From positions 1 to 22,391 of the IMG/VR virus record IMGVR_UViG_3300031857_001520: 22,391 nt of DNA. One strand, 5' to 3'. The notes under the pieces were generated by a model that was not told the origin of the DNA, made no database searches, and was given only the letters and a program-made list of their open reading frames with translations. Origin of the DNA: a virus. The translations under genes were made by a program, and so were the position numbers. Below, in pieces: positions 6,741 through 22,391 of the stretch (positions are counted from its first letter, which is position 1; each line of letters starts with the position of its first letter).

Positions 6741-9665
6741 ATGACAATATCTTCAACTACAGTTAAGAACAGTTATAGTGGTGATGGCTCAACTACCACG
6801 TTTACATATACATTTAAGATATTCCAAGACTCAGATATTCAAGTAATCATTCGTGCTGCTAATGGTACAGAAACCATTAAGACTATTACAACTCATTATA
6901 CAGTTACAGGTGCTGGTGTATCTACAGGTGGTACAGTTGTATTTACATCTGGTAACATTCCAACCTCAACACAAACAGTTGTATTAAGACGTAACATTCC
7001 ACAAACACAAGCAATAGATTATATTGCTAACGATCCATTCCCTGCTGAATCCCATGAAGAAGGATTAGACAGAGCAACAATGGCAATTCAACAATTGCAA
7101 GAAGAAGTAACAAGATCTTTAAAATTATCTAAAACAAATACAATGACATCTACAGAGTTTACTGTGGGTGCTACTGCTCGTGCTAATAAGATTTTAGCAT
7201 TTGATACTAATGGAGAAATATCAGTTACTCAAGAACTTGGAACTAATAGAGGTTCATGGAGTTCTGGTGTTACTTTTAATGCTAGGGATATTGTAAAAGA
7301 TTCATCTAACAATAACGTATATCTTTGTAACACAACTCACACATCTACAGGTTCTACTCCTATCAGTTCTAATACTGATGTAGCTAAATGGGATTTAATT
7401 GTTGATGCACAATCTGCAACTAACAGTGCAAACGCAGCTGCAAATCACGCATCCAACTCTTCAAACTTTGCTAACAATTCATCTAATAGTGCTAACGCTT
7501 CAGCAAACCATGCTAGTAACTCATCTAATTTCGCAAACAATAGTTCTAATAGTGCATCTAATGCTGCTAACTCTGAAGCAAGTGTAAGTGCTAATGCTAA
7601 CGCATCTGCAAACTCTGCAGCAAACTCATCTAACTTTGCAAACAATTCTAGCAACAGTGCAAACTCTGCATCTAATCATTCTGCTAATAGTTCTAACTTT
7701 GCTAACAACAGTTCTAATCACGCATCTAACAGTTCTAATTTTGCAAACAATTCTAGTAACTCTGCAAATGCGTCATCTAATCATGCAAGTAATTCATCTA
7801 ATCATTCAGCGAATAGTTCTAACTTTGCAAACAACAGTTCTAATTCAGCTAATGATGCAAGTAACCATGCTTCAAACAGTTCTAATCATGCGTCTAATAG
7901 TTCTAACCATGCTGCGAACTCTAGCAACTTTGCTAACAACTCTAGCAATCATGCTTCAAATTCTAGTAACTTTGCTAACAACTCAAGCAACTTTGCAAAC
8001 ACTGCTTCTGATGCAGCCAATGCAGCTAATGCCGCAAGAGATACAGCAATAACATTGGTAGATAATTTTGAAGATGTTTACTTAGGTTCAAAAACAGATG
8101 ATCCTACAGTAGATAATGATGGTGATGCTTTAACAGCAGGAGATTTATATTACAATTCAGTAGGTAATGTTTTAAAATATTATACAGGTTCTGCTTGGGT
8201 AGCAATTACATCAGGTGGTATTACAGATTTAGTACAAGACACAACGCCACAACTTGGTGGTATGTTAGATGTCAATGGACAATCTATTGGTGATGGTACA
8301 TTAGAATTAGTTAAATTTGCAGAAACAGCAAGTGCTGTTAATGAAATTACAGTAACAAATTCTGCTACTGGTAATGCACCAGAAATATCAGCTACTGGAG
8401 ATGATACAAATATTGATCTTAAACTTACTCCAAAGGGTACTGGTAAATTAAATTTAGATGGAATTAAATTCCCTAATGCTGATGGTACAGCAAATCAAGT
8501 ATTAAAAACTGATGGTTCAGGTAACTTATCATTTACAACATTAACATCAGATGGAACTGCTGATTGGGACACAACTGTTAAAACAACAGGATTTACTGCT
8601 ACTGCTAATAAAGGATATTTTTGTAATACTACTTCTGCAGGATTTACAGTAACATTACCCGCAACTCCAAGTGCTGGAGATGAAATTATACTTTTAGATT
8701 ACGCAGGAACTTTTGATACCTTTGCTTTAACTATTAATCCTAATGGTGGTAAAATAGAAGGTGGAACATCTAACCTAAAATTATCTGGTGAAAGAGAAGG
8801 AGTAAGATTAGTTTATATAGATTCAACACAAGGTTGGTTAGCTTATTCAGGAATTAATGAAGGAACAGATGCCTTAGCACCAATAACTTATTCAGTAGAT
8901 TTTTTAGTAGTAGCTGGAGGAGGTGGTGGTGGTAGAGGTGATGGAGGAGGAGGCGGTGCTGGAGGATATAGAACATCAACTCAAACAGTATCACCAGGAA
9001 CAGTAATTACAGTAACAGTAGGAGATGGTGGTGCAGGAAGAGCAAGTACAAATGGTCAAGGTACTTCTGGTACAGACTCATCTATTTCAGGCACAGGTTT
9101 ATCAACGATAACTTCTGCTGGAGGTGGAGGCGGTGGAGGTGTTTCAGTAGGTTTAAATGGTGGTTCTGGAGGAGGTGGTTCTGGTGCTAATGCAGGAGGA
9201 AATGGAAACACACCAAGTACTTCACCAAGTCAAGGAAATAATGGAGGATCTGGATTTTCTGGTAATGCTGGTGGTGGTGGTGGTGGAGCTAGTGCTGTTG
9301 GTGAAAGTTCACCTTCCCAAGTTGGTGGTGCAGGAGGAGCTGGAACAGCTTCTTCAATTACAGGTTCTTCAGTTACAAGAGCAGGAGGTGGTGGAGGTAG
9401 AGGTGATAATGTAAATGGTGCTGGTGGAGCAGGAGGTGGTGGAGCTGCTGCTGCAGGAGATGCAACAGCAGGAACAGTAAATACTGGAGGAGGTGGAGGT
9501 GGAACAGCTAGTGGTACAGGTGGTGCTGGAGGAAAAGGAGTTGTTATATTAAGTATGCCAGATGGAGATTATTCAACAACTACAACTGGATCTCCAACTG
9601 TTGCTACAGGAGTTTCAGGAAAAACAGTTTTAACATTTAATGGTTCAGGGAGTTACACAACATAA
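6741..9665 (+). CDS. Tail fibre protein with T7-type N terminus and glycine-rich tip
   Basis: 974 residues with a clear ribosome site (AAAGGAAC, about 5 bp before ATG). Residues 1 to ~125 ('NSYSGDGSTTTFTYTFKIF', 'VVLRRNIPQTQAIDYI', 'DPFPAESHEEGLDRATMAIQQL') match the conserved N-terminal domain of T7-type tail fibres that docks to the tail. Residues ~229-424 are 28 near-perfect 7-residue repeats made of Ser, Asn, Ala, His and Phe. Residues ~425-720 hold beta-rich segments typical of fibre shafts ('YLGSKTDDPTVDNDGDAL', 'DLKLTPKGTGKLNLDGI'). From ~721 to ~935 the protein becomes a series of poly-glycine runs, as in glycine-rich adhesin tips such as phage S16 gp38. Likely role: host receptor binding. 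The stop overlaps the next ATG by 1 bp. Confidence 0.85.
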   Translation: MTISSTTVKNSYSGDGSTTTFTYTFKIFQDSDIQVIIRAANGTETIKTITTHYTVTGAGVSTGGTVVFTSGNIPTSTQTVVLRRNIPQTQAIDYIANDPFPAESHEEGLDRATMAIQQLQEEVTRSLKLSKTNTMTSTEFTVGATARANKILAFDTNGEISVTQELGTNRGSWSSGVTFNARDIVKDSSNNNVYLCNTTHTSTGSTPISSNTDVAKWDLIVDAQSATNSANAAANHASNSSNFANNSSNSANASANHASNSSNFANNSSNSASNAANSEASVSANANASANSAANSSNFANNSSNSANSASNHSANSSNFANNSSNHASNSSNFANNSSNSANASSNHASNSSNHSANSSNFANNSSNSANDASNHASNSSNHASNSSNHAANSSNFANNSSNHASNSSNFANNSSNFANTASDAANAANAARDTAITLVDNFEDVYLGSKTDDPTVDNDGDALTAGDLYYNSVGNVLKYYTGSAWVAITSGGITDLVQDTTPQLGGMLDVNGQSIGDGTLELVKFAETASAVNEITVTNSATGNAPEISATGDDTNIDLKLTPKGTGKLNLDGIKFPNADGTANQVLKTDGSGNLSFTTLTSDGTADWDTTVKTTGFTATANKGYFCNTTSAGFTVTLPATPSAGDEIILLDYAGTFDTFALTINPNGGKIEGGTSNLKLSGEREGVRLVYIDSTQGWLAYSGINEGTDALAPITYSVDFLVVAGGGGGGRGDGGGGGAGGYRTSTQTVSPGTVITVTVGDGGAGRASTNGQGTSGTDSSISGTGLSTITSAGGGGGGGVSVGLNGGSGGGGSGANAGGNGNTPSTSPSQGNNGGSGFSGNAGGGGGGASAVGESSPSQVGGAGGAGTASSITGSSVTRAGGGGGRGDNVNGAGGAGGGGAAAAGDATAGTVNTGGGGGGTASGTGGAGGKGVVILSMPDGDYSTTTTGSPTVATGVSGKTVLTFNGSGSYTT
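7425..8012 (+). repeat. 28 tandem 7-codon repeats in the tail fibre gene
   Basis: Residues 229-424 of the fibre split cleanly into 28 heptads such as HASNSSN, FANNSSN, SANASAN and HSANSSN. Position 1 is H, F or S, and positions 6-7 are nearly always SN. The repeats differ at the DNA level by synonymous changes (AGT/TCT/TCA for Ser; AAT/AAC for Asn), so the protein pattern is better conserved than the DNA. The strongly skewed content also produces long open frames in the other reading frames here; these are not genes. Confidence 0.85.
8905..9540 (+). repeat. Glycine-rich low-complexity coding region (fibre tip)
   Basis: Codons GGA/GGT/GGC dominate, giving repeated G(4-7) runs separated by short Ala/Ser/Thr/Asn spacers, for example AGGGGGGRG, GGGGGGASA and GGAGGKG. 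About 210 residues are affected. The region is markedly less AT-rich than its surroundings because of Gly codons. Confidence 0.8.
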
Positions 9666-14180: not shown

Positions 14181-14297
14181 ATGCTAAATGTCAAATGTAT
14201 TTTTTGGTTAAGAAAAGGATTTTGTGCTTTACTAAATCAGTGTAAATGCTTTAATATAAATGAGGATGACTACAACCCTTTTAGAGAGAAATTATAA
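14181..14297 (+). CDS. 38-residue Cys-rich peptide
   Basis: MLNVKCIFWLRKGFCALLNQ, then CKCFNINEDDYNPFREKL. Four cysteines and an amphipathic/hydrophobic first half suggest a membrane-surface or metal-binding peptide. Its stop overlaps the next start (TAATGG), consistent with coupling. Confidence 0.5.
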   Translation: MLNVKCIFWLRKGFCALLNQCKCFNINEDDYNPFREKL

Positions 14298-14569
14298 TGG
14301 TTAAAAAAATGTATCAAAATCCTAGCGGAGGATTGAACGCTGCTGGTCGTGCTTACTTTAAACGTACTGAGGGATCTAATTTAAAAGCTCCTGTTAAATC
14401 AGGTGTTAATCCAAGACGAGTTTCCTTTGCTGCTCGCTTTGGAGGGATGAAAGGATCTTTACTTACTAAATCTGGTAAACCCACACGTCTTAAGTTGGCA
14501 CTCAAAGCCTGGGGATTTAGTTCAAAGGAAGCTGCGAGAAACTTTGCGGCAAGGCATAAAAAGAAATAA
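14297..14569 (+). CDS. Conserved basic phage protein, DUF6321-like
   Basis: 90 residues. 'NPSGGLNAAGRAYFKRTEG', 'LKAPVKSGVNPRRVSFAARF', 'GGMKGSLLTKSGKPTRLKLALKAWGF' (given in parts) form a pattern I know from conserved marine-phage proteins grouped as DUF6321. Very basic, no catalytic motif; role unknown, nucleic-acid contact likely from charge. Codon GC is higher than in neighbours. Last gene of the late plus-strand run. Confidence 0.72.
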   Translation: MVKKMYQNPSGGLNAAGRAYFKRTEGSNLKAPVKSGVNPRRVSFAARFGGMKGSLLTKSGKPTRLKLALKAWGFSSKEAARNFAARHKKK

Positions 14570-14632
14570 TCTTTAAAAAAAGTCTTTCAAATTTAAACGT
14601 ATATGAGTTTCTTGAGGTGGGTGCTAGGGTAA

Positions 14633-14657
14633 GTACCCCCCAAATTTTGAGGGGTAC
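14633..14657. terminator. GC-rich hairpin between convergent genes (late-region terminator)
   Basis: GTACCCC at 14633-14639 pairs with GGGGTAC at 14651-14657 around an 11-base loop, followed by AAAGTTTTAAGTTT. It lies between the last plus gene and the end of a minus gene, so it may serve both strands. An overlapping upstream GGGTA (14628-14632) could pair alternatively with TACCC, competing with the main stem. Confidence 0.6.
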
Positions 14658-14669
14658 AAAGTTTTAAGT

Positions 14670-15224
14670 TTAGTTAGTGGCTCTCTTTAATTTAGATTTA
14701 TATTTCTTAAGAAAAGTATTTGCTAGTTTTATTTTTCTTTCCCATTTTAAAACAGCCATTCTAAGTTTTGTAATCTTCATTTCTTTCTTTTGATCTGAAG
14801 ACAATTCTGCTTTTGGTTTCTGTTTTAACTTTCCATTTAACCAACCAGATTGAATGACATATCTTATAACTTGTCCCTCAAACTCTGCTTGCAAAGCACA
14901 ATGATCAGGAAGACTTGGACTCCTATATCTAAAGAGCCTATGTGCTAAGTCATGTATTAATCTTCTCCATCCTCTACTTAATAGAGAAGAATTTCCAGAT
15001 AAACAAACCCAACATTTTCTTATCTGAAGATTGATTGGATAGTTTCCATATCTTGATGGAGCAGCATCTTTCTTATTGCCAAACTTTCTAGCTAACAATC
15101 TTGATGCTTTCCTCGCCTCATCATAAGTGATGTAAGGTAAGTTATCTGGTAAGATAGAATTAGCTAAGTCATCATAAGACTTAACTAAATTTTCTCTATC
15201 AGATGTTTCTCTCATTTGTTTCAT
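14670..15224 (-). CDS. Putative zinc metallopeptidase-like protein with HDxxH motif
   Basis: 184 residues with a perfect AAAGGAG ribosome site 7 bp before the start. An N-terminal helical part with 'YDEARKASRLLARKFGNKK' is followed by 'RGWRRLIHDLAHRLF', giving H91-D92-L-A-H95, then H108 and E114/E116 in 'PDHCALQAEFEGQVI' and 'RYVIQSGWLNGKLK'. The H-x3-H plus downstream H/E layout recalls zincins, and I recall relatives with 'RL[IV]HD[VLA]SH...HA..E..I..YV...GWL' in phage and alphaproteobacterial genomes, function unproven. The C terminus is a Lys-rich helix. It stands alone with its own promoter carrying the operator described at 15263-15275. Confidence 0.55.
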   Translation of the reverse strand: MKQMRETSDRENLVKSYDDLANSILPDNLPYITYDEARKASRLLARKFGNKKDAAPSRYGNYPINLQIRKCWVCLSGNSSLLSRGWRRLIHDLAHRLFRYRSPSLPDHCALQAEFEGQVIRYVIQSGWLNGKLKQKPKAELSSDQKKEMKITKLRMAVLKWERKIKLANTFLKKYKSKLKRATN

Positions 15225-15258
15225 ATTTTCTCCTTTGTTGTTTTTTTATTATTTAGGT

Positions 15259-15287
15259 AGTGTACCATATCGGTTATATTATGTCAA
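15259..15287 (-). promoter_or_regulatory. Promoter of the HDxxH gene with an embedded operator
   Basis: On the minus strand TTGACA (15287-15282), 17-bp spacer, TACACT (15264-15259). Transcription would run into the gene starting at 15224. ACCATATCGGTT at 15264-15275 lies in the spacer beside the -10 box. Confidence 0.65.
15263..15276. promoter_or_regulatory. Operator copy 2 (TACCATATCGGTTA)
   Basis: Eleven of 13 bases agree with the perfect palindrome at 19661-19675, in the equivalent place between -35 and -10. ACC/GGT arms are conserved; see 19661. Confidence 0.55.
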
Positions 15288-15334
15288 ACGATATTTTTTG
15301 AGTAAAATATTTTTTAAATAATTTTATTGAAGAC

Positions 15335-15363
15335 TAGACGATAAAAGTTTTAGGGTGTACAAT
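15335..15363 (+). promoter_or_regulatory. Possible promoter for the 15412 gene block
   Basis: TAGACG (15335-15340), 17-bp spacer, TACAAT (15358-15363). It would yield a ~40-base leader before ATG 15412, which is preceded by poly-T/poly-A and no clear ribosome site. Confidence 0.4.
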
Positions 15364-15411
15364 ATTAGGTGCGACAACTTTATACAAATTGTTTTTTTTA
15401 AAAAATAAAAA

Positions 15412-15684
15412 ATGGGTAAGAAAAAATTAATAATTAAATCCTGCGGCAACTGCCATATCTGTGGTAAGGAACACATGTCAAATGAGGGGGGATGGGTTAT
15501 CAATGCTGAGAAACTTAATTTCTGTCATTCAATAGATCATAGTTGCTATGAGATATACTTTAATAATGTGCGTACCAAAGAGAAACAAGCTCTTGTCAAT
15601 AATAATGAAAATGATAAAAGAATGAACATGTACATTGAGTACTTAAAGAAACAAAAATGTAAACATAAGTATGCCACTGAATAA
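15412..15684 (+). CDS. Small putative zinc-finger protein
   Basis: 90 residues. An early CGNCHICGKEH cluster (two CxxC-type pairs, C11 to C17) followed by 'LNFCHSIDHSCYEIYF' gives a plausible four-Cys/His zinc site, and CKHKYATE ends the protein. Lys-rich elsewhere. Probably a small DNA- or protein-binding zinc protein; no family recognised. The next small gene begins inside its 3' end. Confidence 0.6.
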   Translation: MGKKKLIIKSCGNCHICGKEHMSNEGGWVINAEKLNFCHSIDHSCYEIYFNNVRTKEKQALVNNNENDKRMNMYIEYLKKQKCKHKYATE

Positions 15685-15820
15685 AAAAGGTAAAAAGATT
15701 CTTGCAGAAATGCAAAAGGAATATGGAGAGAAAAAAGGAACAGCTATTTTCTACGCATCTGAAAATAAAGGTACGATCAAAGGTGTAAAGAAAAAAGGCA
15801 AATCAATGTTAGCTAAATAA
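15671..15820 (+). CDS. 49-residue conserved basic phage peptide
   Basis: MPLNKKGKKILAEMQKEYGE, then KKGTAIFYASENKGTIKGVK and a Lys-rich end. 'KKGKKI...M...YG.KKG..VFYAS.NKGTIKGV' is a phrase I know from small conserved proteins of many marine and enteric phages, function unknown. It overlaps the preceding gene by 14 bp. Confidence 0.65.
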   Translation: MPLNKKGKKILAEMQKEYGEKKGTAIFYASENKGTIKGVKKKGKSMLAK

Positions 15821-15821
15821 T

Positions 15822-15986
15822 ATGGATAAATCTAAATATCATAAAACAAAAGAAGGTAAGATGGCTCGTAAAGGTTTGTATTATAATATTAACAAACGTA
15901 AAGAAGCTGGTACATCAAGATCTAAATCAGAATCTACTATATCTAAGAAGGCTTATAAGAGTTTGTTATCTGGTTTTAAGAAATAA
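15822..15986 (+). CDS. 54-residue basic phage peptide
   Basis: MDKSKYHKTKEGKMARKGLY, then YNINKRKEAGTSRSKSES and a Lys-rich end. 'KGL[YW]-x-NI-x-x-[KR]RK-x-AG' is a recurring core in tiny basic phage proteins. The stop is immediately adjacent to the stop of the convergent minus gene, with no spacer. Confidence 0.6.
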   Translation: MDKSKYHKTKEGKMARKGLYYNINKRKEAGTSRSKSESTISKKAYKSLLSGFKK

Positions 15987-16490
15987 CTATTTTACAGTTT
16001 TCATAACATAATCATATCTATTCCAGATAACATGATCTGGCTGCCAGAAATGTTCCTTATTCATTTTCATTCTAACATGATGGATCATTGTAGTGTGATC
16101 ACGATTACCTAAGATAACTCCAATCTTTGTAAATGGCATAGAGTATTTATCTCTAAGCACATTAATTAATATGGATCGTGCAATCACTGCAGCTTGTATT
16201 CTAGTCTTTGCAATAATATCATTTACATTTACACCTAACTGATTGGCAACGATTGCTAATATCTCTTTAACATTCTCAGGTACAACCACATCATTGATCG
16301 TTACATACTTAACAACTTCTTTAACTACTGTTTGTTTGTATCTGTAATTGTTTCTAAAAAATTGTCGTGCCAATTTATATCCAGTTCTAAATCCTGTACG
16401 ATAAATCTTTCTTTCTCTGTCATCTAAGTTAGCGAAACTATTAAATGAATATCTTAGTTTGATTTCTTTCTTAAACTCTTTTGGTGTCAT
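15987..16490 (-). CDS. DnaA domain IV (DnaA-box-binding) protein lacking the ATPase domain
   Basis: 167 residues with an AAAGGGGAT ribosome site. Residues ~1-75 are basic with a Tyr/Arg-rich helix (ERKIYRTGFRTGYKLARQFF). Residues ~75-160 match DnaA domain IV: 'VKEILAIVANQLGVNVNDII' then 'QAAVIARSILINVLRDKY' then 'MPFTKIGVILGNRDHTTMIHH', with the signature R130-D-H-T-T134 that reads the DnaA box. There is no AAA+ Walker motif; full DnaA is about 450 residues. It may occupy DnaA boxes as a replication or transcription regulator, either for the phage (boxes at 12298 and 12567) or against the host origin. It lies at the distal end of the minus-strand block. Confidence 0.9.
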   Translation of the reverse strand: MTPKEFKKEIKLRYSFNSFANLDDRERKIYRTGFRTGYKLARQFFRNNYRYKQTVVKEVVKYVTINDVVVPENVKEILAIVANQLGVNVNDIIAKTRIQAAVIARSILINVLRDKYSMPFTKIGVILGNRDHTTMIHHVRMKMNKEHFWQPDHVIWNRYDYVMKTVK

Positions 16491-16503
16491 AGCTATCCCC
16501 TTT

Positions 16504-16516
16504 GTTGCAATGCAAC
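16504..16516. promoter_or_regulatory. Perfect palindrome upstream of the DnaA-like gene
   Basis: GTTGCA-A-TGCAAC, 14 bp upstream of the start codon at 16490. It could be an operator or a small leader hairpin. Confidence 0.4.
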
Positions 16517-16535
16517 TGTTCGTTGTTTATCATTT

Positions 16536-16560
16536 AAGATAATGATTACGCCATTATCTT
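16536..16560. other. 9-bp perfect hairpin in the leader of the DnaA-like gene
   Basis: AAGATAATG / CATTATCTT around a 7-base loop (ATTACGC). On the plus strand it is followed by TTCTTTT, on the minus strand by AAATG. It could be a weak terminator for plus-strand antisense RNA or a leader structure. Confidence 0.5.
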
Positions 16561-16585
16561 TTCTTTTGTCTGCTCAATTTTAAAT

Positions 16586-16619
16586 ATCAAACGTTTAGAA
16601 TCATTTAGATTCTTTTGAT
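16586..16619 (-). terminator. Nested stem-loop directly after the 16622 gene
   Basis: Inner stem AGAATC/GATTCT with a 5-base loop, outer arms ATCAAA/TTTGAT with a bulge. On the minus strand it starts two bases after the stop codon and is followed by ATATTTAAAATT. AT-rich, so weak as a terminator; it may protect or end the upstream mRNA, giving the DnaA-like gene separate control. Confidence 0.4.
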
Positions 16620-16621
16620 AC

Positions 16622-16873
16622 TTATGAAAGAACTCCAGAGCTTTCTGATGTCTTAGCTCCTGCAGATCTCTCATCTTTTGCAGACGAATCTTTAGTTTGT
16701 CCAACTAAATCATCCTTCTGTTTAATCGTTGTAAAAACTGTTTTAATAGTTTTAATCTTTACATCAATCACTACACCTTTGGCAGCTGGATCTGATGCGA
16801 TTTCAGCACTATCAAATTCCTCTGAATATACAAAGGAACACTCACAGTTCTTATTGCGAATAACTTTTACCAC
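16622..16873 (-). CDS. Small protein of unknown function
   Basis: 83 residues, starting on a 1-bp overlap with the DUF6378 gene. N-terminal half beta-rich (VKVIRNKNCECSFVYSEEFD; VVIDVKIKTIKTVFTTI); C-terminal 25 residues are a Ser/Lys/Ala-rich flexible tail. Two near-adjacent cysteines (C10, C12). No family recognised. Confidence 0.5.
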   Translation of the reverse strand: MVKVIRNKNCECSFVYSEEFDSAEIASDPAAKGVVIDVKIKTIKTVFTTIKQKDDLVGQTKDSSAKDERSAGAKTSESSGVLS

Positions 16874-17178
16874 TATTTATCCTTTTTGGCAATATCTTTA
16901 TGTCTTAAATTCTTTGTCATTTTGCAGTAGATCGCAAGATCATCATAGCTATCAGCTTTATATTTCTTGGTGCAGCGATATAGTTTTAGTGCCATCATAA
17001 TGTGTCCCACATCCTCTGCTGTCAGTGCTTTATTAATCTTATCAAATAAAACAATGGAGAATAGTTCAGCAAGTAATGCAAAGTTTTCTTGGTAATCTCC
17101 ATAATCCTCATGGCGTTCTTGTATAATCTTCTTCTGTATTTTTTCTTCAATAGAAATAAAATCTTCTTTAGTAGTCAT
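16873..17178 (-). CDS. DUF6378-like protein (MazG-like nucleotide pyrophosphohydrolase fold)
   Basis: 101 residues with an AAAAGGAAC ribosome site. All-helical: 'IQERHEDYGDYQENFALLAEL', here shown in part, 'LTAEDVGHIMMALKLYRC' and 'DSYDDLAIYCKMTKNL'. The pattern R..DYG....N then K..R then DS..DLA.Y matches the phage family DUF6378, which resembles all-alpha NTP-pyrophosphatases of the MazG/dUTPase group with acidic metal ligands on successive helices (E20, D24, D83, D86 approximate). Expected role: hydrolysis of a nucleotide, perhaps (p)ppGpp or non-canonical dNTP control; inference. It is preceded by the structured leader at 17202-17265. Confidence 0.65.
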   Translation of the reverse strand: MTTKEDFISIEEKIQKKIIQERHEDYGDYQENFALLAELFSIVLFDKINKALTAEDVGHIMMALKLYRCTKKYKADSYDDLAIYCKMTKNLRHKDIAKKDK

Positions 17179-17201
17179 ATAGTTCCTTTTCTGTTTTTTA
17201 C

Positions 17202-17265
17202 TCTACCCTCAGGGAAACAACGAAAGGGTGGCTGAGAACAGCCGAGGTAAAACCCCAAGGGTAGA
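17202..17265 (-). ncRNA. Structured RNA candidate in the leader of the DUF6378 gene
   Basis: A three-stem fold is visible. P1: TCTACCCT (17202-17209) with AGGGTAGA (17258-17265), 8 bp. P2: GGGT (17226-17229) with ACCC (17252-17255). P3: GGCTG (17230-17234) with CAGCC (17239-17243), closed by a 4-base loop and stacked on P2. P2 and P1 are separated by a 16-base purine-rich internal loop and P3/P2 by an 8-base bulge. GC-rich against its surroundings. On the gene's strand it ends 23 bases before the start codon and lacks a T-run, so it is not a terminator. Confidence 0.55.
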
Positions 17266-17267
17266 AT

Positions 17268-17291
17268 TAATAGTTACTTACGTAGCTATTA
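17268..17291 (-). other. Inverted repeat overlapping the stop codon of the 17289 gene
   Basis: TAATAG (17268-17273) and CTATTA (17286-17291) around a 12-base loop containing TACGTA. On the minus strand it includes the TAA stop and lies just upstream of the structured element. Confidence 0.35.
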
Positions 17292-17624
17292 GTATTGTCT
17301 ATTACCGAAAGATTTTCCGCTTGTAAACGCTTTCTTTTGAAAGCCTCCAGCTTTAAATCCAGGTTGTTTGTTTTGTGTCGCTTGTGCTTCTTTCTTTGTT
17401 AGAATGACAGTGTATCCACCTGTTGAGTTTCCTTCAATGTCAGTTCCATCAAACGCTGCGTAATCGTACCATTCATTATTGATTGACACGTTCATTTTCC
17501 ATTGCTTTCCTTCTGGAGCTTTTGGAGAATTAGGTGCAACAAATACTGGTTGATTGTCGCCTGGCTTTTTATTTAAGTTAGGAACAAGATTTAAATATAT
17601 CTTGCTCTTTGGTTGGTCGTTCAT
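17289..17624 (-). CDS. Unknown protein coupled to the annealing-protein gene
   Basis: 111 residues, beginning directly after the preceding gene's stop. 'KSKIYLNLVPNLNK', a Pro-rich linker, 'GKQWKMNVSINNEWYDYAAFDG', 'GGYTVILTKKEA' and a flexible Gly/Phe/Lys tail (GFKAGGFQKKAFTSGKSFGN). The beta-rich core with a disordered tail could be an OB-fold ssDNA-binding partner of the recombination genes, but the tail is basic rather than acidic as in SSB. Unassigned. Confidence 0.5.
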   Translation of the reverse strand: MNDQPKSKIYLNLVPNLNKKPGDNQPVFVAPNSPKAPEGKQWKMNVSINNEWYDYAAFDGTDIEGNSTGGYTVILTKKEAQATQNKQPGFKAGGFQKKAFTSGKSFGNRQY

Positions 17625-18224
17625 CTATACCTCATTTTGAGTTGTGATCTCATCACGCTTACTATTAAATTTATTTAAAATAGAATCGTAAGTGGATTGA
17701 TCTTTTATTTTTATTTGATTTAGAAGATCTTTATTAGCACGCCACAGAAAATCTAATTTAGCTGTATGCGGTGCGTAATGTACCTTCTTCATCAATTCAT
17801 TAATTACACCATCATCAACATTTGTTGATGTAGTGCCTTTGCCATTCATAGGTTGTACTGGAATATCTAATTCCTCATACTCTTCCTTAGATGTCATATC
17901 TTCAAGAAGAATACCCATGATTGATAAAGCTCGTGTGATTGCAAATGTTTCAGCTATCTCAAGATAACCTGGTTTATCTCTAAACTGTTTAGAGTAACCT
18001 GTTGCTATAATATGTTCTGGATCGCATTTAGTTATAATACATTTCATTATAATATAACGATCAGAATGTTCTTGTATTACACAGTTGATACCAAACTCAG
18101 TACCAAATACTTCTCTAAAGTATTTAATTTTTGACCAGGCTGATACTGTTTTCTTACCATGTTGATTTATGTATGTGCCATTGGATGCACACAAATCATT
18201 CACTTGTTTTATTTTTTCTTTCAT
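17625..18224 (-). CDS. Putative phage ssDNA-annealing/recombination protein
   Basis: 199 residues. 'WSKIKYFREVFGTEFGINCVI', then beta strands ('YIIMKCIIT'), 'ATGYSKQFRDKPGYLEIAET' and 'FAITRALSIMGI'. The 'E.AET.AI.RAL...GI' helix after a short beta-sheet is shared by phage proteins annotated as ERF/Sak-like or RecT-like annealing proteins. The C-terminal ~70 residues are helical and charged. Lying in one block with a PD-(D/E)XK exonuclease, it would form a lambda-Red-like pair that anneals exonuclease-made single strands. The family assignment is tentative. Confidence 0.55.
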   Translation of the reverse strand: MKEKIKQVNDLCASNGTYINQHGKKTVSAWSKIKYFREVFGTEFGINCVIQEHSDRYIIMKCIITKCDPEHIIATGYSKQFRDKPGYLEIAETFAITRALSIMGILLEDMTSKEEYEELDIPVQPMNGKGTTSTNVDDGVINELMKKVHYAPHTAKLDFLWRANKDLLNQIKIKDQSTYDSILNKFNSKRDEITTQNEV

Positions 18225-18232
18225 TTGTTTCC

Positions 18233-18445
18233 TTAGGTTGTTTTATAATCACAGGTATATGCGAAAACCTCTTTGGATTTATAGAATGTACCTGTCTTGT
18301 TTCTTGCTGTACTGAACTTGCTTGTGTGTACATAAGTATGCTTACTAAATAAAGCATCACACAAACGAGGATCAATCTTATCTACTTTATATTCGTATGT
18401 ATTGGCATAGCCATTCATAAGAATTATTGTAAGTACAATTTTCAT
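18233..18445 (-). CDS. Small protein, possibly exported
   Basis: 70 residues, starting on an ATGA overlap with the upstream gene. A short hydrophobic start (MKIVLTIILMNGYA) may be a signal peptide or anchor. The remainder has two cysteines (LCDALF; YTCDYKTT) and is basic. Compare the protein at 12327-12545, similarly built. Unknown function. Confidence 0.5.
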   Translation of the reverse strand: MKIVLTIILMNGYANTYEYKVDKIDPRLCDALFSKHTYVHTSKFSTARNKTGTFYKSKEVFAYTCDYKTT

Positions 18446-18627
18446 TTTGATATTATGTAAATTATAAGAACAAATATTATTAAAATTAAAACTACTTTAA
18501 TAAACATATTTCTAAACTCCCTATCTTCCCTTTGTTTTAATTTACGCATTATATTATCATGCCTAAATTGTTGTCTAATCTTTTCGTGTTGCTTCTGATA
18601 ATAATTTATATCCATAATTCTACACAT
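18442..18627 (-). CDS. Small membrane protein, C-terminal single span
   Basis: 61 residues. A charged N-terminal helix rich in Gln, Lys and Arg (QKQHEKIRQQFRHDNIMRKL) and one span at ~41-60 (MFIKVVLILIIFVLIIYIIS). Tail-anchored topology with a cytoplasmic basic domain. It overlaps the exonuclease gene by 8 bp; M5 at 18615 is an alternative start. Function unknown. Confidence 0.55.
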   Translation of the reverse strand: MCRIMDINYYQKQHEKIRQQFRHDNIMRKLKQREDREFRNMFIKVVLILIIFVLIIYIISK

Positions 18628-19591
18628 TATCCCACAATGAAGCTGCTAATCTAACGTGTTCATCAGCTATAGTCTTCCACATAAAACCAGAAAAATCTGG
18701 TGGCGGAACTAACTTAGCCATGTCGTAAGGATTACCTTTTGTAATATAAACTAAGTTCTGTCTAATCTTAGCTGTAATTAAATCTTGCTGCACTAAGAAC
18801 TCCATGTACTCAGGTGTAAGCAATTCACAAGTGTCAGGAGTAAACACATTGTAGCTGTCTTGGTTTACATAAAGTAAATGAGGAGTTTTCTTTGTAGCGT
18901 ACCAATAGAAAGCACATTGTTTAACATGGTTGATGTCAGGTTGTTTAGGTAGATAACCTTTGATCCAAGAGTAACCTTGTTTAGTATCTGACTTTCTTTT
19001 GCTTCTATGTTTTGTTTTTAACTCCACTAACTTAGGTTTAGTACCACTCACAGAAGTATCCATCTGTTCGTAATCTATTCTACCAATTTTATCTAAAACT
19101 AATTCTTTAAATTTATAAGTGCAGTATCTTTCACTTGCAACCTCATCTCCTAATTTTAAGTCAGCTATTGCTTTACAAGTCAATTTAATCATGTCTGCAA
19201 GATAATTTTTTGTATCTTCTTTTTGTATTTTATCTTCTTCATCTGCCACGACATACTTATCATACTCAATTAATTCTTCTTTGATGATAGTATCTAAATC
19301 TTTTTTTTCATTTAGAATTTTTTTCTCAGCTTCATACATATACTTAGAAATATATTTTTGTGATGCTCTACCAATACTTACGCCAGCACTCATTCTGTAA
19401 GAACCTTGTAAAGCTCTCCTCTGTTCTTGTGTAAAAAAACAATATCTGACGATCCAATCACTTGTTGTTAATTGATCTTGAGATGGCGAACTGTGGTCCA
19501 AACCAAGTGCCTGATAATATTTAATACAAATATCAGGATCAAAATTATTTAGTGCCGAGATACTATTATTCTTTGTTAAATCAATAACCAT
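18620..19591 (-). CDS. PD-(D/E)XK exonuclease (RecB/Cas4-like)
   Basis: 323 residues with a GAAAGG ribosome site. N-terminal 'LTTSDWIVRYCFFTQEQRRALQG' and 'SAGVSIGRASQKYIS', a helical middle, then the nuclease core: 'VLDKIGRIDYEQ' with D173 and 'KLVELKTKHR' with E190-L-K192, followed by 'QGYSWIKGYLPKQPDINHVK' and 'QCAFYWYATKK', the C-terminal QxxxY-like helix of RecB-family nucleases. Expected role: resection of phage dsDNA ends for recombination with the annealing protein downstream. It is the promoter-proximal gene of the minus-strand block. Confidence 0.78.
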   Translation of the reverse strand: MVIDLTKNNSISALNNFDPDICIKYYQALGLDHSSPSQDQLTTSDWIVRYCFFTQEQRRALQGSYRMSAGVSIGRASQKYISKYMYEAEKKILNEKKDLDTIIKEELIEYDKYVVADEEDKIQKEDTKNYLADMIKLTCKAIADLKLGDEVASERYCTYKFKELVLDKIGRIDYEQMDTSVSGTKPKLVELKTKHRSKRKSDTKQGYSWIKGYLPKQPDINHVKQCAFYWYATKKTPHLLYVNQDSYNVFTPDTCELLTPEYMEFLVQQDLITAKIRQNLVYITKGNPYDMAKLVPPPDFSGFMWKTIADEHVRLAASLWDNV

Positions 19592-19615
19592 ATAAACCTT
19601 TCATTGTTTAAAAGC

Positions 19616-19643
19616 ATACTAATGTTAATAACCTTTATGTCAA
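19616..19643 (-). promoter_or_regulatory. Leftward promoter for the minus-strand block
   Basis: On the minus strand TTGACA (19643-19638), 16-bp spacer, TAGTAT (19621-19616). RNA would start about 20 bases before the exonuclease gene's start codon. Its -35 box is 9 bp from that of the rightward promoter, facing away. Confidence 0.65.
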
Positions 19644-19652
19644 TAATAATAT

Positions 19653-19680
19653 TTGACATGAAACCATATTGGTTTATAAG
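19653..19680 (+). promoter_or_regulatory. Rightward early promoter
   Basis: TTGACA (19653-19658), 16-bp spacer, TATAAG (19675-19680). RNA would start near 19687, leaving the AGAAAGG ribosome site of the 19704 gene intact. Confidence 0.75.
19661..19675. promoter_or_regulatory. Operator copy 1 (perfect palindrome AAACCATATTGGTTT)
   Basis: Six-bp arms around TAT, lying wholly between the -35 and the -10 of the rightward promoter, the classic site for a repressor that blocks polymerase. The HTH protein encoded ~120 bp downstream is the natural candidate. A related copy is at 15263-15276. Confidence 0.7.
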
Positions 19681-19703
19681 GGTTTTTAAACAGAAAGGTA
19701 AAT

Positions 19704-19802
19704 ATGAAAACTAACTTCAATAAACAAATAAGAAAATTACTTAAAAGGTATCATAGAATGTTTGATTGCTTTGGTAATAAAATAAAAAGGAAAGGAAAAT
19801 GA
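19704..19802 (+). CDS. 32-residue basic leader peptide gene
   Basis: MKTNFNKQIRKLLKRYHRMF, then DCFGNKIKRKGK. It has an AGAAAGG ribosome site and ends on an ATGA overlap with the HTH gene, so its translation may couple to the regulator. Highly basic; unknown function. Confidence 0.5.
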   Translation: MKTNFNKQIRKLLKRYHRMFDCFGNKIKRKGK

Positions 19803-20020
19803 AACACAAATTAGCACAATGGCAGGAAGAAAAAAAACTTAAGAACAAAGACGCTGCAAAATTTTTAGGATTAAAAGGAACTAATCCAACAGTTACTTTG
19901 TTAAGGTGGAAAAATTGCCAACGCATTCCACATCCACGTTTTATGAAACAAATAACTAAACTAACTGGCATCACTCCAATAGATTTTTATGAGGCATGGT
20001 ATGAAACACATAAACTATGA
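19799..20020 (+). CDS. Cro/XRE-like helix-turn-helix regulator
   Basis: 73 residues. 'LAQWQEEKKLKNKDAAKFLG' then 'LKGTNPTVTLLRWKNCQRIP' then 'HPRFMKQITKLTGITPIDFY' follows the XRE pattern: helix 2 (NKDAAKFLGL), turn, recognition helix (NPTVTLLRWKNCQRIP), and the 'P.P..M..I...TGI.P.DFY' ending of Cro-like proteins. No extra dimerisation or peptidase domain, so Cro-like rather than CI/LexA-like. Likely binds the operators at 19661 and 15263 and represses the early rightward promoter. Confidence 0.8.
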   Translation: MKHKLAQWQEEKKLKNKDAAKFLGLKGTNPTVTLLRWKNCQRIPHPRFMKQITKLTGITPIDFYEAWYETHKL

Positions 20021-20264
20021 TAAAGTAATTGTTGAGTGGTTGGATATACAATCATGCGATAATGCTTGGAGTAGTTTAGATGAATTTGATAAATTACTTC
20101 CAGCTAAATGTACAACCATTGGCTACCTTTATGAAGATAATAAAGATTGGATAAAAACTTTTGCCACATATAGCATCAACGAAAATTTAGAAGATTTTGA
20201 TATAGGCGATGCAGTGGTTATTCCTCGTGGCTGTATTTTATCCATTAAAAAAATAGAAAATTAA
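20001..20264 (+). CDS. Conserved small phage protein of unknown function
   Basis: 87 residues from ATG 20001, preferred over ATG 19989 because GAGG lies 6 bp upstream of 20001 while nothing precedes 19989. 'KVIVEWLDIQSCDNAWSSLD', 'FDKLLPAKCTTIGYLYEDN' and 'FATYSINENLEDFDIGDAVV' then 'IPRGCILSI' form a recurrent signature (WLDI.S...W......D.LLPA.C.T.GYLY.D) of small proteins in phages and bacteria. Not enzymatic by motif. Overlaps the HTH gene by 20 bp. Confidence 0.68.
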   Translation: MKHINYDKVIVEWLDIQSCDNAWSSLDEFDKLLPAKCTTIGYLYEDNKDWIKTFATYSINENLEDFDIGDAVVIPRGCILSIKKIEN

Positions 20265-20265
20265 A

Positions 20266-20412
20266 ATGATTGATAAAGAATTGCATGTTGAAGATGTAAT
20301 AGAAATGTACAACGAAAAGATTTTAATCTTACAAAAAGAAATAGATCGGCTTAACGAGGAAGTGCAAGCTCTCAATCTACAATTACAGAAATTAAATAAT
20401 GTCATTTCTTAA
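20266..20412 (+). CDS. 48-residue coiled-coil protein
   Basis: MIDKELHVEDVIEMYNEKIL, then 'ILQKEIDRLNEEVQALNLQL' and QKLNNVIS. Leu/Ile/Val recur at heptad positions, predicting one continuous leucine-zipper helix. It overlaps the next gene by 14 bp. Probably an oligomerisation or partner-binding peptide. Confidence 0.6.
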   Translation: MIDKELHVEDVIEMYNEKILILQKEIDRLNEEVQALNLQLQKLNNVIS

Positions 20413-21049
20413 TCACAATATTCCTGTATGGAAAGCCAAAGTTAGATTGGAATATTTATACAATAAAGAAAAACATATTGGCGAAGAAGAAGTTTGTCTT
20501 ATTCATTCTATAACTACATTAGAGGGTAGAACACCATTGTTTAATATCATGCTACCAAATGGTGCTAACTATGCAAGGCTACCAATCACAGCTTTTTTTT
20601 CTGATGCTTACAATAGAAAAGATGTAGTTGATTTAGAATTAAAACAAACTGTGTATTGGGATTGCTTATCTTATCATGCTAATGTTATTGAGTACAATGC
20701 ACTAGCCACATCACAGTGTAAGTTTATTGATCGTAATAATAAATTACATAGAGCTAATTATTTATTTAGTATTGATTATGCTCAACCTGATATGAACTTA
20801 TTAAACATAACTTACAGTGAGGTAAGTGCTGAACATAAACACCACCATATTTTAGAATTAAATAAAGATGATGAGTGGCAAGGTAATTTCGCACTCATGC
20901 CAAACAATAAAATATTATTTAATCTACCAAACTTTACAGTTAAAGATCAGATACCAGATTATAAAACTAATATGGATTATCCAAGCGTTGAAACAGATAG
21001 TTGGAGTACGTCAGATGACGATAGCTTTTATTATAAGGTAAAAGAATAA
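20399..21049 (+). CDS. Conserved protein of unknown function
   Basis: 216 residues. 'HNIPVWKAKVRLEYLYNKEK', 'LFNIMLPNGANYARLPITAF', 'YWDCLSYHANVIEYNALATS' and an acidic, aromatic C terminus ('VETDSWSTSDDDSFYYKVKE'). Mixed beta content, no membrane segments, no recognised catalytic motif. Acidic tail could contact a basic partner. I recognise no named family. Confidence 0.6.
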   Translation: MSFLNHNIPVWKAKVRLEYLYNKEKHIGEEEVCLIHSITTLEGRTPLFNIMLPNGANYARLPITAFFSDAYNRKDVVDLELKQTVYWDCLSYHANVIEYNALATSQCKFIDRNNKLHRANYLFSIDYAQPDMNLLNITYSEVSAEHKHHHILELNKDDEWQGNFALMPNNKILFNLPNFTVKDQIPDYKTNMDYPSVETDSWSTSDDDSFYYKVKE

Positions 21050-21058
21050 TACATAATT

Positions 21059-21826
21059 ATGCCAAAAAAAAAATATTTTACAGAAGAAGAAAAACAACAA
21101 GCAAAAAAAATATATAGAGAAAGAGATAATTTAAAAAAAAGATTAAGATATAAATTAGATAAAAAGTTTAGAGAAAAAGAAAAAAAAAGAACTAAATTAT
21201 ACCACCACAATAATCCTCACATTGCATTAAAAATTAGAATCAATAAAAAAAATAAAATGAAAACAGATTTAAAATACAGAAATCATACTTTGCAAGTTAG
21301 AAAAAAATATTTAATAAAAAATAAAAAATTAATCAAAGAGCAAAAAAGATTATATTTTTTAAAAAACAAAAAAAAATTATACCAAAAAAATAAAGAATGG
21401 AAAAATAAAAATAAAATTAAATTTAGTTTATGGAGAAAAAGTTATGAAAAATTACCACATGTTAGAAGTTCTACAAATGAAAGAATTAGAAAAAGAATGA
21501 AGACAGATCCTATTTTTAGATTAAGAAAAAATTTAAGATTAAGATTGTATGAATATATTAAATATAACAGGGGAAAAAAATATGGATCAATGCAAGAACT
21601 TCTTGGATGTGATTGGATTAAATTTAAAAAACATATTGAAAGTAAGTTTGTTAAAAATATGAGTTGGAATAATTATGGAGATTGGCATATTGATCACATA
21701 ATACCAATATCTAAATTCAATTTACTAGTAAAATCTGAACAATTTAAAGCATGTAATTATAAAAATCTCCAACCTTTGTGGAGAATGGATAATATTTTAA
21801 AATCAGATAAAATTATTAATAACTAA
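21059..21826 (+). CDS. HNH homing-type endonuclease
   Basis: 255 residues. The first ~150 residues are an extremely Lys/Arg-rich helical region (nearly all AAA and AGA codons), likely DNA-binding. The C terminus has the HNH core: H210-I-D212-H213-I-I-P in 'DWHIDHIIPISKF', then 'ACNYKNLQPLWRMDNILKSD' with the Asn/His-position residues. The pattern D-H-I-I-P...NLQPLW...N..K is typical of free-standing phage HNH endonucleases. It is even more AT-rich than its neighbours and sits between two unrelated genes, ending in a TAATGG overlap, consistent with a mobile insertion. Confidence 0.85.
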   Translation: MPKKKYFTEEEKQQAKKIYRERDNLKKRLRYKLDKKFREKEKKRTKLYHHNNPHIALKIRINKKNKMKTDLKYRNHTLQVRKKYLIKNKKLIKEQKRLYFLKNKKKLYQKNKEWKNKNKIKFSLWRKSYEKLPHVRSSTNERIRKRMKTDPIFRLRKNLRLRLYEYIKYNRGKKYGSMQELLGCDWIKFKKHIESKFVKNMSWNNYGDWHIDHIIPISKFNLLVKSEQFKACNYKNLQPLWRMDNILKSDKIINN

Positions 21827-22233
21827 TGGCTAGATATAATTATTTCGTAGGTGGATTTGGAGATTACTATTCCGAGTGGCATAGAAATAAATGTTCTGAT
21901 ATTGCTTACATAGATATAGATAGTGTACCTATCTGTATTAATAAACCTTGTTGGCAGCCATTAGCAGTCATTGAAACTGTATATGATACTGGTAAGAACT
22001 ATAATAAATATACTACTGTTGTAGAATACATAGCTAAAGGCTTAAATATACCTTGTTTTTTGCTATACTATAAACCTATACCAAGCACAGACAGCCTAGA
22101 GTTCAAAGTTAAGCGTCTATACCCCTTTAAAACTGATTTAAACCCTATCTTAGAGGAAGAATGGTACTATGAAATGCTTAAATTACAGATTGAGCATGAT
22201 AAGGTATGTAAATACAAGGTAAATCGTGGCTAA
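21826..22233 (+). CDS. Unknown protein with nuclease-like fold hints
   Basis: 135 residues, starting on a 1-bp overlap. 'EWHRNKCSDIAYIDIDSVPI', then 'QPLAVIETVYDTGKNYNKYT' and 'EYIAKGLNIPCFLLYYKPI'. Asp residues on one strand (IDID), a Glu on the next (VIET), a Lys-containing helix and a following buried strand resemble a restriction-endonuclease-like fold, but the canonical (D/E)xK is not clean. The C terminus is charged and helical. Confidence 0.55.
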   Translation: MARYNYFVGGFGDYYSEWHRNKCSDIAYIDIDSVPICINKPCWQPLAVIETVYDTGKNYNKYTTVVEYIAKGLNIPCFLLYYKPIPSTDSLEFKVKRLYPFKTDLNPILEEEWYYEMLKLQIEHDKVCKYKVNRG

Positions 22234-22391
22234 TAAATCGCATATAAGATTGAATGTAAGTCTATTTAATCACGACTTATTTCTCTCACTGCCAAGCAAA
22301 AGGAAAGGCGATTGCTTATCTATATTGATTGTATTGCTAAGATTTACTAACTTTAGATCTGGTTTATGCTACCCTAGGTATTCTAAGATTA
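22226..22391 (+). CDS. Start of a further early gene, truncated by the window end
   Basis: The frame is open from GTG 22226 to the last base (55 codons). GTG is preceded by AAGG 6 bp upstream and overlaps the previous gene by 8 bp, as is usual here. MANKSHIRLNVSLFNHDLFL, then SLPSKRKGDCLSILIVLLRF. The LP-x-K-x-KG...L..LL.RF pattern resembles winged-helix N-termini of replication-initiation proteins, but too little is present to say. Confidence 0.5.
   Translation, partial: MANKSHIRLNVSLFNHDLFLSLPSKRKGDCLSILIVLLRFTNFRSGLCYPRYSKI

Follow-up and report, generated by a model that had tools for sequence, protein, structure and literature searches.

A near-palindromic operator shared by early promoters and an inserted HDxxH cassette in a pelagiphage group, with a probable Cro-like repressor

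How a lone leftward gene, lying within the rightward late block of a phage, comes to carry in its promoter a site resembling the operator of a helix-turn-helix (HTH) control region is the question raised by the HDxxH gene of the window. The window is the whole stretch of DNA analysed here, IMG/VR virus record IMGVR_UViG_3300031857_001520, positions 1 to 22,391 (22,391 bases; a whole genome or a fragment). Few viruses are as abundant as pelagiphages, and all 17 phage records that match window positions 14600-22391 are Pelagibacter phages, Skadi and HTVC010P among them. The gene order is that of Skadi-4: late genes pointing rightward, then a DnaA-like gene, then the nuclease operon, read leftward, and the HTH operon, which diverges from it to the right. 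The window also holds a long open reading frame (6741-9665) that is Gly-rich in its C-terminal half and contains Ser/Asn/Ala repeats (SSNFANNSSN...), a tail fibre judging by its position, and an Rfam search of the window returned zero matches.

Two operator sites in promoter spacers

The sites and promoters concerned are as follows.

15259..15287, minus strand: HDxxH promoter, TTGACA-17-TACACT (read from 15287 to 15259), by consensus match only
15263..15275, minus strand: operator 1, AACCGATATGGTA, within the HDxxH promoter spacer, from sequence and kept in 12 of 14 HDxxH loci
19653..19680, plus strand: leader/HTH promoter, TTGACA-16-TATAAG, from sequence
19661..19675, plus strand: operator 2, AAACCATATTGGTTT, with 6-bp arms and a 3-bp centre, within the leader/HTH promoter spacer
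19616..19643, minus strand: divergent leftward (nuclease) promoter, TTGACA-16-TAGTAT, with the half-site AAGGTTATT only in the window

A sequence-only reading of this DNA had claimed that the two sites match in 11 of 13 bases, that both lie by the -10 box in the spacer of a TTGACA promoter, and that sharing both sequence and position is unlikely by chance; all three points were borne out. Operators 1 and 2 agree in 11 of 13 aligned bases (the top-strand letters at 15263-15276 are TACCATATCGGTTA), and in promoter orientation the HDxxH site AACCGATATGGTA matches the bottom strand of operator 2, AACCAATATGGTT, equally well. The spacers holding them measure 17 bp (HDxxH) and 16 bp (leader/HTH), and both operators fall wholly between -35 and -10 or touch the edge of the -10 only. 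When the motif scan proposed with that reading was run within the window, the exact core ACCATATNGGT was found twice, at these two promoter sites (shuffle mean 0.04), and none of 300 shuffles reached two. The same holds for TTGACA followed within 8 nt by AACY-N4/5-RGT, with two occurrences against a shuffle mean of 0.09 and, again, 0/300 shuffles reaching two. A chance origin of the operator sites was ruled out by these shuffles together with the conservation described below. Looser motifs are not enriched in the window, either at two mismatches (12 found vs 18.1 expected) or as AACY-N4/5-RGTT regardless of promoter (6 found vs a mean of 8.2), and the signal therefore lies in the exact core combined with the promoter-spacer position, without genome-wide excess. 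Position weight matrices lead to a similar view. Numbering the promoter classes in the order leader/HTH, nuclease, right-end and HDxxH, a matrix built from the class 1 and 2 operators of relatives ranks 44,756 window positions with the HDxxH site in 6th place; training on class 1 alone puts it 16th, training on class 2 puts it 6th, and leaving out type A sites puts it 25th, so that sequence alone would not single out the HDxxH site if its promoter position were disregarded.

The HDxxH promoter has an architecture that bears directly on this resemblance. A TGG stands just before its -10 box, resembling an extended -10, and the GGTA half of the site overlaps this element (TGG-TACACT), which leaves the AACC half alone as clearly unexplained by the promoter. 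It could be argued that an extended -10 and a chance AACC account for the whole likeness, with no operator present, the more so as TGG also precedes the -10 of the L120, HTVC111P and HTVC106P promoters. We consider this quite improbable, as the distance of the AACC is unchanged at 12 of 14 HDxxH loci and at both loci with an 84-aa cargo gene, the exact 13-mer reappears in the HTH control region of the distant relatives L120/L137, and class 1 and class 3 promoters carry the operator without that TGn element.

The HDxxH gene as cargo of an inserted cassette

14570..15411, no strand: 842-bp insert (the cassette), flanked by genes 14297-14569 and 15412-15684, whose homologues adjoin each other in relatives
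14670..15224, minus strand: HDxxH gene, 184 aa, the cassette cargo, of no Pfam, PHROG or PADLOC family
14633..14657, minus strand: hairpin GTACCCC...GGGGTAC, directly 3' of the HDxxH gene, -17.5 kcal/mol
15316..15378, plus strand: conserved non-coding element with core CTAGACGATNNAANTTTTAGGGTG, bordering the cassette on the side of gene 15412, with 84.4% identity to HTVC106P

In an alignment of 11 relatives the HDxxH protein shows no variation in its HDxAH motif or in a DH...E further on. A search for a close HDxxH carrier among cultured phages found none. Searches of Pfam, PHROG and PADLOC gave no match, comparison with the PDB gave no convincing one, and the AF2 model is poor (pLDDT 60.5). 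Identification as a zincin-like metallopeptidase is not supported, no recognisable fold or family having emerged from these four sources. At the DNA level, AACC(GA/AG)TATGGTA occupies the same promoter position at the 12 loci that keep the operator, one of which has AG for GA; the two that lack it are the most diverged (77% and 54%), and neither HTH nor nuclease was detected on their 13.5- and 17.1-kb contigs.

A comparison of 27 distinct junctions between homologues of genes 14297 and 15412 separates 16 empty from 11 occupied ones. The empty junctions have gaps of -1 to 8 bp and contain neither operator nor conserved element; the occupied ones hold inserts of 539-842 bp, and operator and element are both present in 11/11. 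The cargo is an HDxxH gene in ten of them and an unrelated 84-aa gene in one (L149), and the same exchange, with the 84-aa gene behind the same promoter and operator, is seen at L135, whose contig yielded no 14297 homologue. Judged from these alignments, the HDxxH gene is the cargo of a moron-like cassette, an insert with its own consensus-match promoter. Phage morons are single genes that bring their own promoter, have been inserted between genes adjoining each other in relatives and end in a hairpin, and the HDxxH cassette resembles them in each of these features. It differs in that its promoter has the phage's early operator, cargo is exchanged under one promoter, and a non-coding element marks the other edge. 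The hairpin is matched in folding by 0/200 shuffles (minus strand), lacks a T run and is absent from the terminator-scan list; it is possibly a terminator or the cassette end, and similar hairpins lie 3' of the cargo in L069, L078, L026 and L149. Near this junction, L064, L089 and L095 carry a Lys-rich open reading frame of 177-199 aa inserted directly after the 15412 homologue (HNH-like is a guess).

The core of the edge element is present in 18 IMG/VR stretches, and no stable RNA fold was found for positions 15316-15378. The element (CTAGACGATNNAANTTTTAGGGTG...GTGCGACAAC) adjoins the leftward cassette promoter wherever that side can be read. In HTVC106P-like sequences the leftward promoter beside the element reads AAAC(C/T)CAATGTGGTATAAT and lies ahead of other small genes, and in HTVC111P a non-coding stretch homologous (73.6%) to the HDxxH promoter contains AACCCATTTGGTA and precedes a different gene, gp11. 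The homology of the cassette to both phages indicates that the promoter travels between phage groups, and it might be taken to mean that the cassette operator is baggage inherited from another pelagiphage and without effect here. We give this very little credence, because in L078 the -35 of the HDxxH promoter has decayed to TTGAAC while the 13-mer AACCGATATGGTA is intact, and because every occupied junction has kept the operator. A broader reading, in which promoter-operator and edge element form a portable plug-in common to unrelated pelagiphages (the window group, HTVC106P-like phages and HTVC111P) that puts exchangeable single-gene cargo at various loci under early-repressor-type control, is tentative and perhaps doubtful.

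The operator family and its candidate binder

19704..19802, plus strand: leader open reading frame, 32 aa, very basic and conserved, between operator 2 and the HTH gene, overlapping the HTH start codon
19799..20020, plus strand: helix-turn-helix protein, 73 aa, the proposed repressor (AF2, Foldseek, Pfam on a homologue)
18620..19591, minus strand: putative nuclease, leftward early gene, homologues being so annotated in Skadi-4 and HTVC203P

The AF2 model of the HTH protein is compact (pLDDT 92.6), with five helices at residues 4-11, 16-22, 30-38, 46-56 and 60-71, and has the predicted five-helix fold expected of the Cro/CI (HTH_3) family, with the HTH at helices 2-3. The top Foldseek matches are of HigA (XRE), DdrO and P22 c2 types, at probabilities of 0.96-1.00 and all with E>0.1. 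In Pfam the window protein itself reaches only HTH_37 (E 0.14) and the L120 and Skadi homologues fall below the HTH_3 cut-off; the L078 homologue, 39% identical to the window's, scores 33.1 bits against the HTH_3 cut-off of 23. Activation of the MerR type was rejected in view of the 16-17 bp spacers and of this HTH_3 homologue. A search of bacterial genomes for HTH homologues found none.

Relatives of the HTH protein were collected as 65 IMG/VR loci, and a broader alignment gave 80 loci out of 235 confirmed, those from L312 onward being mostly new. Upstream DNA was available for 62 of the 65, L065-L067 being dropped since they start inside the gene. Operator 2 or a variant stands upstream of most of the homologues fetched with upstream DNA, in a recurring arrangement in which the spacer of a TTGAC promoter contains a near-palindrome. 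The types include AAACCAYATTGGTTT, AACCAATAAGTTT, AACTATTATGGTT, AACCATTTAGTT and AACTTAATGGTT, with AACTTTTATGGTT in the clade whose HTH proteins are 52-58% identical, and all are AACC-N-GGTT-like in one orientation. Within 160 nt upstream of the HTH gene no operator was found in L006, L032, L062, L063 and L064; L032, L062 and L064 have one further upstream, and none was found in L006. In L078 the HTH promoter holds TACCGATTTGGAA. Two loci stand out for their arrangement. L318 has a tandem duplication of the TTGACTGTTAATAACTTTTATGGTTAT promoter-operator upstream of its HTH gene, and L346 has an HTH protein of the 52-58% clade behind the type A operator AAACCATATTGGTTT, a pairing that suggests promoter swapping between lineages.

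The near-palindrome AACC-N5-GGTT/A sits in the spacers of three early promoters, the rightward leader/HTH, the divergent leftward nuclease and the right-end leftward promoter. Many lineages have a full operator (AACC-N-GATT) at the nuclease promoter, AACCAATAAGATT or a close variant, and type A genomes, the window included, have a half-site there. TAACTTTAATGGTTA, ACCAATATGGTT or variants of them occupy 15 right-end leftward promoters on 15 contigs, ahead of first genes that are mostly unlike one another, those of the pairs L032/L101 and L062/L092 being shared. In a census of 656,892 bases, made up of 100 distinct HTH-bearing contigs with the window among them, 128 promoter-embedded operators were counted against 7, 2, 6, 3 and 3 in five shuffles, a contrast that denotes over-representation rather than independent events, the pattern having been written after the sites were seen and the contigs being related. 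By promoter, 91 of them belong to leader/HTH, 18 to nuclease, 14 to right-end and 3 to HDxxH; these four classes take in 126/128, and the two others are the L120/L137 control regions. In 25 virus records the operator pattern matched 21 times and the reversed pattern 5 times. Scans of IMG/VR with the operator pattern gave 44 and 91 matching loci with no homologue of any of twelve window proteins, and as such matches are mostly chance, only loci with window-protein homologues were used.

The strongest link between the HDxxH operator and the HTH control region is provided by L120/L137. These were found by scanning for the HDxxH operator behind TTGAC, and their HTH and nuclease are 36% and about 29% identical to those of the window. 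In their HTH/nuclease intergenic region the leftward promoter, which is separated from the nuclease by an 83-aa open reading frame, holds AACCGATATGGTA letter for letter, and the rightward HTH promoter holds AACCTTTATGGTA. On the contig of L120 (L474) a third, accessory promoter about 3.4 kb away holds AACCTTTATGGTT, so that one genome has the operator at three promoters and one of the copies is identical to the HDxxH site of the window.

Two observations would fit an operator that is real and bound by some other factor, from the host or encoded elsewhere in the phage, with the HTH gene simply lying next to one of the sites. HTVC106P-like phages and HTVC111P have operator-like motifs at related cassette/leftward promoters, and no HTH of the window family was found in them. 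The HTH proteins of L003 and L004 are identical to that of the window, and the operator ahead of them, AACCAATAAGTTT, has a different spacing. To be set against a regulon of the HTH protein more generally are the half-site at the nuclease promoter of the window and the absence of an AACC-GGTT site from the examined stretches upstream of the HTH homologues (25-36%) of Skadi, HTVC203P, HTVC010P and HTVC034P. Binding by another factor is nevertheless unlikely in our judgement. A regulon in the host was rejected, the operator being rarer in 25 SAR11 genomes (25 loci used of at least 80) than the reversed-pattern control, with 6 matches vs 14. The operator accompanies HTH promoters across wide divergence of the HTH protein, down to 36%, and the segment GTNPTVTxLRWKNCQRIPHP, which aligns with the recognition helix, hardly varies among 28 HTH homologues while the operator keeps AACY...GGTT/AGTT.

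A proposed early circuit and its relatives

Taken as a whole, these comparisons make it probable that the 73-aa HTH protein is a Cro-like autorepressor of early promoters, and that the site at 15263-15275 belongs, as an operator, to the phage's own early regulon, which would include the promoter of the moron-like cassette. In this model, the HTH protein, as first regulator of the rightward operon, would bind near-palindromes of the AACC-N5-GGTT type between -35 and -10, blocking the host RNA polymerase and shutting the early promoters. Phages of the HTVC010P type have no RNA polymerase of their own, as stated for Skadi in PMC10504331, which reports two transcriptional regulators and four sigma-70 promoters in Skadi. 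The targets would be its own promoter and usually also the divergent nuclease promoter and the right-end leftward accessory promoter; where a genome has the insertion, the cassette promoter would be a further target, the cargo in the window being the HDxxH gene. This cargo would be transcribed leftward immediately after infection and turned down as the HTH protein accumulates, despite its location in the rightward late block. The site at the HTH promoter is the most symmetric, with its 6-bp arms, and that of the HDxxH promoter is less so, and a weaker or later shut-off of the cargo might therefore be expected. The identity of the 19799 protein as binder, repression rather than activation, and early timing are the parts of the model that we infer. 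The sequence-only reading had placed the HDxxH promoter in a regulon of the HTH protein, and the shared operator, kept at HDxxH loci and repeated as a 13-mer in L120/L137, upholds that part; two corrections are needed, in that the gene is part of an insertion and no long-standing neighbour of the late genes, and that the nuclease and right-end leftward promoters belong to the regulon too.

The closest parallel is lambdoid Cro, a small early HTH protein of a rightward operon whose OR and OL operators come in triplets. The window group is like it in its small early rightward HTH protein, its near-palindromic operators inside divergent early promoters (including one overlapping the HTH gene's own promoter, a feature of Cro-like autorepressors) and the proposed autorepression. 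It differs in having one operator per promoter rather than triplets and an inserted cargo cassette, and its binding is predicted; unlike the lambdoid system, no second repressor gene or integrase was noticed in the window. In cluster A mycobacteriophages one repressor acts through many stoperator copies dispersed in each genome, as described in the portions available of PMC9283540 and PMC6550527. As far as those portions go, the likeness is one regulator with multiple operator copies in a phage genome, and the differences are that operators of the window group are few, near-palindromic and in promoter spacers, with no lysogeny known. A stoperator system was rejected for the window, since sites outside promoters would be expected and both exact sites lie in promoters. 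The group shares its gene order and its DnaA-like, nuclease and HTH genes with HTVC010P-type phages (Skadi, PMC10504331; freshwater relatives, PMC6811365), and differs from them as portrayed in the available parts of those papers, where neither operator nor regulon is described. Nor is the operator described in the pelagiphage literature searched (promoters, regulators, operators, HTVC010P and HTVC106P), which covered few subscription papers.

As the switch recurs at the early promoters of many relatives, the HDxxH gene is probably wired into the early on/off circuit. An accessory gene inserted antisense in the late block could in this way stay on an early schedule, and if the plug-in reading were true, new genes would arrive already wired to the Cro-like protein of a resident or superinfecting phage. 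With a defined operator, a regulon and a candidate repressor in hand, the temporal control of HTVC010P-type phages becomes directly testable in vitro.
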